Source: Rhodobacterales bacterium
GTDB lineage: Bacteria > Pseudomonadota > Alphaproteobacteria > Rhodobacterales > Rhodobacteraceae
Direction: 5' to 3'
NCBI GenBank assembly: GCA_025362795.1
Contig: JANYFE010000067.1
Location: 1 to 64,000, forward strand
Length of the DNA: 64,000 nucleotides
A program made the position numbers and the translations under genes. The notes under the pieces were generated by a model, which saw only the letters and a program-made list of their open reading frames with translations, was not told the DNA's origin and ran no database searches. The stretch's first letter is position 1. Each line of letters opens with the position of its first letter. Below, one piece after another: positions 16,232 to 17,778 of the stretch.

Positions 16232-16429
16232 CTTAGGGTGCCCGAGGTCTTCGAAATCTCCGCAAGCGGCCCCCCGCCCAGCAAGGCGGAGGGGAGAGTG
16301 GTCTTGTCGCGGTTTGGTGCCGCTCATTTGATAGCGTAATTTGCAGCAAAGGAGATGAGCTATGGGCACAGTCAGGACGGATGAATTTCGCAAGGATGCG
16401 GTGCGGATCGCGCTGAGTTCGAAGGATCA

Positions 16430-16454
16430 GAAAATGATCTGGGGGATCATTTTC
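16430..16454. repeat. Palindrome A (GAAAATGATC arms)
   Basis: Perfect 10-bp arms (GAAAATGATC / GATCATTTTC) surround the loop TGGGG. It is preceded by AAGGATCA. It lies inside orfA and keeps the frame. Confidence 0.9.
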
Positions 16455-16655
16455 CCTGAGGACCGGCTTTCACGCAAACAGATTGCCGATGATCTTGGGG
16501 TCGGGATGTCGACGCTTAACATGTGGATCACGGCGCATCGTGACACCGATGTGGTGTCGGTTGAGGATCGTGAACTTGCCCTTGAGAACGAACGGCTCCG
16601 GCGCGAAAACCGCATTCTGCGCGAGGAGAGGGACATCCTAAACTGAGGAGGATTA

Positions 16656-16680
16656 GAAAACAGTCCGGGGGACTGTTTTC
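16656..16680. repeat. Palindrome B (GAAAACAGTC arms)
   Basis: Perfect arms GAAAACAGTC / GACTGTTTTC surround the loop CGGGG. The flanks are TGAGGAGGATTA on the left and CCGACGA on the right. It interrupts the end of orfA. Confidence 0.93.
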
Positions 16681-16982
16681 CCGACGAAGGCCACCCAGTT
16701 CTTCGCGAGCCAAAAGCCGTGAGGTTTAGGTTCGTCGAGGAACATCGCGGCAGCTTTGCAACGGATCGGTTGTGTCAGGTCATGAACGTCAGCCCGCGCG
16801 GTTTGCGGGCCATACGCCGCCGCCCTGCCAGCCGCAGGCCGCACACAGACATGGTCGTTCTGGCCCACATCAAAGAACAGTCGCGCCTGAGCCTGGGCAG
16901 CTATGGCAGGCCCAGGATGACGGAGGAGTTGAAAGATGTCGGGTTAGATGTTGGTCATCGCCGGGTCGGGCGCGTTCGTCGG

Positions 16983-17007
16983 GAAAACAGTCCCCCGGAC
17001 TGTTTTC
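16983..17007. repeat. Palindrome C (GAAAACAGTC arms, reverse orientation)
   Basis: It has the same arms as palindrome B with loop CCCCG. The flanks are the complement of B's: TCGTCGG on the left and TGAACCTCCTCA on the right. The element is therefore inserted in the opposite orientation. It truncates the first block of orfB. Confidence 0.93.
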
Positions 17008-17078
17008 TGAACCTCCTCACTGCGTGAGAACGGAATCATCGTTGAAAGAACACGTAAATTCAAGGTGGAGTAGGGTCA

Positions 17079-17103
17079 GGAAATGATCCGGGGGATCATT
17101 TCC
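17079..17103. repeat. Palindrome D (GGAAATGATC arms)
   Basis: Perfect arms GGAAATGATC / GATCATTTCC surround the loop CGGGG. It is preceded by GGAGTAGGGTCA and followed by CCGACGA. It is inserted in orfB after RKFK. Confidence 0.93.
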
Positions 17104-17489
17104 CCGACGACGCACCGACAACGATCATAAGTTCAACATCGCACCGAACCTGCTGGATCGTGACTTCGCGGCAGCTGGGCCGAACCAGAAATGGGCGGGC
17201 GACATCAGCTATATCTGGACCCGTGAGGGGTGGCTGTATCTGGCTGTGATCCTGGACCTCCATTCCCGGCGCGTGATCGGCTGGGCCGTCAGCAACCGCA
17301 TGAAACGCGATCTGGCGATCCGGGCGCTGAAGATGGCCATCGCTCTGCGATCCCCGCCGCCGGGCTGTATCTTCCACAGCGACCGCGGCAGCCAATATTG
17401 TTCGCACGACTACCGACGCATCCTGCGTGAGCATGGGTTCAAGGCGTCAATGAGCGGAAAAGGCAACTGCTATGATCGAGCCATGGGCG

Positions 17490-17510
17490 CCATTGGTTCA
17501 AGCCCAATGG
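17490..17510. repeat. Hairpin F of a different type inside orfB
   Basis: Perfect 7-bp arms CCATTGG / CCAATGG surround the loop TTCAAGC. It lies immediately upstream of palindrome E in the same 90-base insert and shares no sequence with palindromes A-E. Confidence 0.75.
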
Positions 17511-17533
17511 TGAGGGCAGCCGTTTTACGTCGG

Positions 17534-17558
17534 GAAAACAGTCCACTGGACTGTTTTC
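17534..17558. repeat. Palindrome E (GAAAACAGTC arms, reverse orientation)
   Basis: It has the arms of B and C with loop CACTG. The flanks are ACGTCGG on the left and TGATCCTCCTCA on the right. It replaces the codons that would carry the catalytic Glu of the transposase. Confidence 0.93.
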
Positions 17559-17778
17559 TGATCCTCCTCACCGTCTTCAAGACGATCAAGGCCGAGCTGA
17601 TATGGCGCAGGTCCTGGGAAGCACGCCGCCAGGCCGAAACCGCCATCTTCCAATATATCAACGGCTTCTATAACCCACGCCGTCGGCATTCAGCATTGGG
17701 AGGAAAAAGCCCCTTGGCCTTCGAACGCCAAGTGGCCTAAACAAGCACTTGGGGCGGCACAAATACGCGACAAGACCA

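Follow-up and report, generated by a model that had tools for sequence, protein, structure and literature searches.

A candidate mobile hairpin repeat in the transposase genes of Rhodobacterales

An IS3-family element and its palindromes

The window, meaning the whole 64-kb stretch of DNA that was analysed, carries an IS3-family element that holds a cluster of short palindromes. The features are listed below, with scores from the covariance model R1 described in the text.

16299..17778, plus strand: IS3-family element with ends TGGTCTTGTCGCG... inverted; the terminal inverted repeats match at 25 of 30 positions
about 16362-16643, plus strand: orfA of the IS3 element
16719-17737, plus strand: orfB of the IS3 element, in pieces
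16416..16463, plus strand: palindrome A, element copy, 43.6 bits
16642..16689, plus strand: palindrome B, element copy at the orfA/orfB junction (A-run), 71.2 bits
16974..17021, minus strand: palindrome C, inverted element copy, 72.7 bits
17065..17112, plus strand: palindrome D, element copy, 63.4 bits
17490..17510, no strand assigned: sixth palindrome, CCATTGGTTCAAGCCCAATGG (CCATTGG..CAATGG), family 4, inserted next to E
17525..17572, minus strand: palindrome E, inverted element copy, 66.5 bits

The transposase of the window IS3 is matched as four consecutive pieces by the NCBIfam profile NF033516 (best value 1.9e-48 in a profile search), and a homologue search found relatives of the element in 46 of 149 family genomes. 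The original prediction had described palindromes A to E and was right in their coordinates, in the perfect 10-bp arms around a 5-base centre, in the two arm types and in the inversion of C and E relative to B and D; when folded, each arm reaches 11 bp and the loop shrinks to 3 nt. R1, which was built from 60 copies (58 at other loci plus B and D of the window), recovers all five as copies of a single element of about 44-49 nt and gives no other full-length match in the window, where none had been noticed before. Upon dinucleotide shuffling of the window, the expected number of palindromes is 0.00 for the GAAAACAGTC arm type and 0.02 for the other. The prediction had counted five palindromes only and overlooked the sixth, which lies inside the IS, is unrelated to A-E and is not present in the IS homologues. 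Inserts related to this sixth palindrome occur at four other loci (L169, L105, L158 and L174).

The rest of the 3.84-Mb genome contains one clear extra copy according to R1 (C10:1434-1481), which adjoins an IS3 orfA-like frame, and a bare palindrome at C94:9212 that the model scores as a non-member. Five of the six model-recognised copies of this genome thus sit in one IS of 1.5 kb.

Insertion, ends and fold

The comparison with palindrome-free copies of the IS that the original prediction had called for was carried out, and many such copies exist. The alignment has clean empty sites for A to E and shows that they are insertions into the IS and not parts of it, and the idea that they form an integral component present in all copies is refuted. 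Palindrome A accounts for a net gain of 42 bp that, as had been pointed out, keeps the orfA frame; its right end has diverged (CCCTGAGGA) and it is missing in about 20 homologues in the alignment with IS3 relatives. The net gain is 43 bp for B, whose site is filled in L159, L168, L177 and L048 and empty in L174 and others, for C, which sits between VGR and LMREN of the transposase, and for D, which sits between KV and TTDSNH. Palindrome E adjoins the catalytic-E motif DNAAVETFFK and is entangled with a further palindrome, and its site is also filled in L160, where the gain is again 43 bp. Since IS3 elements change frame between orfA and orfB, the position of B at their junction would fit a functional part of the IS such as a frameshift or anti-read-through signal. 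This reading is barely credible, as most homologues have no palindromes, the sites vary and the same element is found in unrelated IS families.

The size of the insert was defined from 72 junctions across other ISs for which an empty homologue is available, and 62 of these show a gain of +42, +43 or +45 net (21, 29 and 12 junctions, respectively). The most common value, +43, shifts the reading frame, and therefore the in-frame insertion known from Rickettsia palindromic elements, which the original prediction had invoked, is not the rule here. In the cleanest pair, a Paracoccus aminovorans IS110 that carries the element in frame is compared with an empty P. yeei IS110 of 96.7% identity, and ATGATG(CATC)GTGGACG becomes ATGATG(TATGAGG...CGACGATTG)GTGGACG, so that the native CATC is replaced. 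Approximately four native bases are likewise replaced in other near pairs (AAAA at site B and GAGT in an IS5 element), and no target site duplication was seen in the clean filled/empty pairs. The P. aminovorans IS110, located on plasmid IV (L228, WP_074967680.1), is annotated as intact despite its in-frame element, which adds 15 residues (YEEGQKTVRGTVFPT).

Insertions occur in both orientations and in all codon phases. The flank preferences are weak, with a purine or G before the element and GG after it, and the flank comparison established no common target motif beyond these. At its outer edges (columns 2-3 and 47-48) the element has base pairs that covary and look constant within an insertion site, which gives the impression of ends tailored to the target, and a plain insertion model does not account for such site-specific pairs. 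A 4-bp palindromic target of the form NTAN' (YTAR-like), which the complementary outer base pairs had suggested, was rejected since the clean empty sites CATC, AAAA and GAGT do not fit it.

The hairpin is preceded by ATCA(G), has an 11-bp stem that starts with G:C and is followed by the tail CTGATCC. The stem sequence varies strongly while pairing is kept, with 127 double-change cells compared to 31 expected, a value reached in 0 of 500 shuffles. In addition, a helix of G:C pairs and two tandem G.A/A.G steps, with an ATCA bulge, is possible between the conserved strands GAGGAGGATCAG and CCCGACGA, and the inner G.A/A.G step is swapped for G:C/C:G in 12 distinct sequences and for C:G/C:G in five. 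The G.A steps are confined to one strand, and this points to a single strand, either RNA or single-stranded DNA, as the likely working form.

Transposase genes as habitat

A strict-pattern scan in which each species was represented by one genome gave more than 100 loci among the matches listed, nearly all of them in Rhodobacterales, and removal of near-identical flanks left 145 distinct sites among these matches, a number that overcounts independent events because many same-site insertions are inherited. By similarity to transposase seeds, transposase sequence adjoins 125 of the 145 listed sites (86%) and lies on both sides in 81, compared to 29 of 420 control points in the same loci at more than 2 kb from any copy; the seeds were derived from the insert flanks themselves, and therefore the odds ratio between these two counts is partly circular. 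Independent evidence comes from the HMM counts. The right flanks of 138 sites match NCBIfam transposase models many times, with up to 30 hits for IS5, 27 for IS3, 12 for IS256, 8 for IS481, 4 for IS630 and 2 for IS110, as well as hits for IS66 and IS21, and match only a handful of other gene families; the left flanks are concordant. Four further sites appear transposase-like by eye, and about 10-14% of the listed sites have no transposase sequence. Judged from these flanks, the host of the element is transposase genes in general, in at least eight IS families across Rhodobacterales. The original prediction of a short palindromic family nested in or targeting this one IS therefore stands with regard to insertion and clustering, whereas the host range turned out to be wider; an even spread through the genome, which would have spoken against it, was not found either, as copies are concentrated beside transposase sequence.

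Outside ISs the element is found in tRNA-derived repeats and a few intergenic sites. In Nitratireductor aestuarii (L083, L084, L140 and L144) several copies lie in tRNA-like sequence that is not transposase, and this is the only clear expansion seen away from ISs. Another alphaproteobacterium (L269, G378:C112 1-640) carries a tandem array with a period of about 110 bp derived from the 3' part of a tRNA-Val gene, and in every unit of the array the T-loop region holds a variant form of the element.

Within the group of the window IS3, at least four palindrome families occupy common hot spots at positions 313-323, 587-603, 655-661 and 1016-1033 of a 1253-bp empty reference. Mapping of the filled state on the IS tree gives at least 6, 7, 5 and 5 changes at B, C, D and E, respectively, and insertion events are therefore recurrent. 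Taking all hosts together, the nearest homologue is an empty one in 32 of 91 cases. Palindromes of family 2 lie within a few nucleotides of the site of C in L158, L173 and L182. This second family is a bulged hairpin of Rhodobacteraceae (CTCGGCAGATTGC..GCAATCGCCTGCCGGGCAG; L238-L263, L158, L159, L162, L170, L173 and L182) with a net gain of about 38-42 bp, and by eye approximately 23 of its 27 distinct sites are in transposase genes. A third insert, a 57-bp double hairpin (GAGTTCAA...GATCCGGGGGATC...GCGCAG), is present near site E in L168 and L177, between NCYD and NAA of the IS3 transposase.

ISs laden with inserts are able to multiply. Phaeobacter porticola (G075; L243, L252, L257 and L259) has four IS3 copies that are 98-99% identical in differing surroundings, one of them on plasmid pP97_b, and all contain the B insert and about six palindromes each, of two families. 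They have an orfA frameshift in common, two of them carry a deletion of approximately 125 bp, and no empty copy of this IS3 was detected in P. porticola by pattern search. Paracoccus MKU1 likewise harbours several identical element-bearing copies near contig ends. Dead, insert-laden IS copies thus still multiply, presumably by means of a transposase that acts in trans. Their multiplication could also be accommodated if the transposase stayed functional because the insert is removed from the RNA, like an intron, or skipped by ribosomes, like a byp element. This alternative is very improbable given that both orientations are found and that the P. porticola copies have the further lesions just described; moreover, as four native bases are replaced, removal of the insert would not restore the gene.

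Mobilisation and relation to known repeats

The element belongs to the general kind of non-autonomous mobile hairpin repeats, as its copies are dispersed, share one fold and lie at sites that are empty in relatives. The favoured reading, with a probability of roughly 0.55, is that it is a REP-like mobile hairpin that resides in transposase genes, is moved in trans and spreads by riding on ISs. A trans-acting enzyme would move the hairpin, probably in single-stranded or RNA form, and place it in short target sites that may recur in conserved transposase segments. The ISs would then be both preferred target and vehicle on which the element crosses species, and being dispensable, present in many copies, mobile in trans and passed on by horizontal transfer they would give it a lasting home. 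Several observations weigh against this reading: the analysis found neither a mobilising enzyme nor a larger parent element, the flanks show weak preferences only, the outer base pairs do not fit plain insertion, and some copies lie outside ISs.

RAYT (PF01797) is the mobiliser of REPs in other bacteria, and such a transposase had been suggested in the original prediction. A search for Y1 transposases of the IS200/RAYT type (PF01797) found none in 12 of 12 carrier genomes, i.e. that of the window and 11 others, while the same search was positive in control genomes. The absence of RAYT from these carriers favours a trans-acting enzyme of another kind. The size and single-hairpin form do resemble REPs, but together with the missing PF01797, the lack of a GTAG tag and the intragenic siting largely refute the reading as a GTAG-type REP moved by a RAYT (IS200/IS605 HUH transposase), of which very little likelihood is left.

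The main rival of the mobile-hairpin reading, possible though on balance unlikely, is tolerance combined with hitchhiking, according to which insertion is without preference and copies are purged from useful genes but survive in dead ISs that multiply in trans and travel between species. The multiplication of frame-shifted copies in P. porticola and of identical copies in Paracoccus MKU1 is in support of it, as are the lack of a strong target motif and the modest number of copies, which ranges from a few to tens per carrier genome. However, insertion without preference predicts that intergenic or neutral DNA should dominate, in contrast to the small share of sites without transposase sequence, and neither the concentration of nearly all copies of the window genome in one IS nor the hot spots that unrelated palindrome families have in common within a few nucleotides, in one IS group, is readily explained by it.

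A more doubtful reading is that a hairpin-based system actively recognises transposase genes, through a guide or a shared DNA/RNA feature, and plants hairpins in conserved motifs, as a natural silencer or a homing parasite, with unrelated palindrome families sharing machinery and hot spots. Less probable still is active defence or homing, in which a host- or element-encoded system would recognise transposase genes and insert a hairpin, often with an in-frame stop, in order to disable them. The near-exclusive siting at conserved motifs of unrelated transposase families would agree with this, and of the 45 sense-oriented insertions whose frame is clear, 29 have the position of the TGA of TGAGGAGG in phase, more than one third, although several of these read GGA there. 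The bias is weak when each distinct site is counted once (about 14 of 27), so a design around codon phase or stop codons is unconvincing. Further points weigh against active defence: numerous insertions lie antisense or contain no stop, the gene stays open in one IS110 copy, the element also occurs in tRNA-derived repeats and no associated gene is known.

On the mobile-hairpin reading, a small mobile repeat makes its home in larger jumping genes, and inactivated ISs can go on spreading with their hairpin cargo. The repeats living in these transposons come with filled sites and their empty counterparts, have defined ends and a covarying fold and share hot spots, and for this reason the movement of palindromic repeats that have no transposase of their own becomes directly testable. 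If the preference for transposase genes were active, it would represent a new way of transposon targeting.

Intergenic DNA is where small palindromic repeats have mostly been described. A search of the literature, with subscription journals largely outside its reach, found no earlier description of palindromes inside transposase genes. The element behaves as a non-autonomous small palindromic repeat, yet it fails the defining features of each named family. It is small, non-autonomous, dispersed and hairpin-shaped like GTAG REPs and REPINs, but its conserved strand has neither a GTAG nor a GGAG tag and it is not extragenic. With MITEs it has in common that it is short, palindromic, non-autonomous and dispersed, while target bases are replaced instead of duplicated. 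Rickettsia palindromic elements comprise several palindromic families of about 150 bp that reside in frame within coding genes, which are unrelated and mostly metabolic (PMC10969869); the present element is similar in that several families are inserted within coding genes, and differs in its net size of 42-45 bp, its often frame-shifting insertion and its location in transposase genes.

The CGTC-tagged REPs are small single-hairpin repeats of Alphaproteobacteria with no known transposase, characterised by stems of 8-9 bp that start with A-T, loops of 4-5 nt and a CCA tail; they are found mainly between genes, and their association with transposase genes was judged only fortuitous (Di Nocera et al. 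2013, PMC3733652). On its other strand the present element begins with CGTCGGG, but those bases lie within the G.A/G:C helix, and its 11-bp stem starting with G:C, ATCA bulge, tandem G.A pairs and CTGATCC tail set it apart. Membership was rejected on stem start, stem length and tail, and its life in transposase genes is the opposite of what the CGTC survey described.

Two Brucella sequences are of note. The Bru-RS repeats are palindromes linked to IS711 (PMC2266754), but in that pairing it is the repeat that receives the IS, the opposite of what is seen here, and a relation is only possible. Among the sequences found, the nearest relative is a hairpin within the Rfam family RF02604 (Brucella sRNA CI153, BASRCI153), which matches window positions 17510-17571 with 27.6 bits, far below the gathering score of 137, as a local match to one hairpin. 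The RF02604 model holds a hairpin, GGGGAAATCAGTCCACTGGACTGATTTCTGATCC, that is very similar to that of the element, and this likeness raises the question of whether the Brucella CI153 sRNA belongs to the present repeat family.
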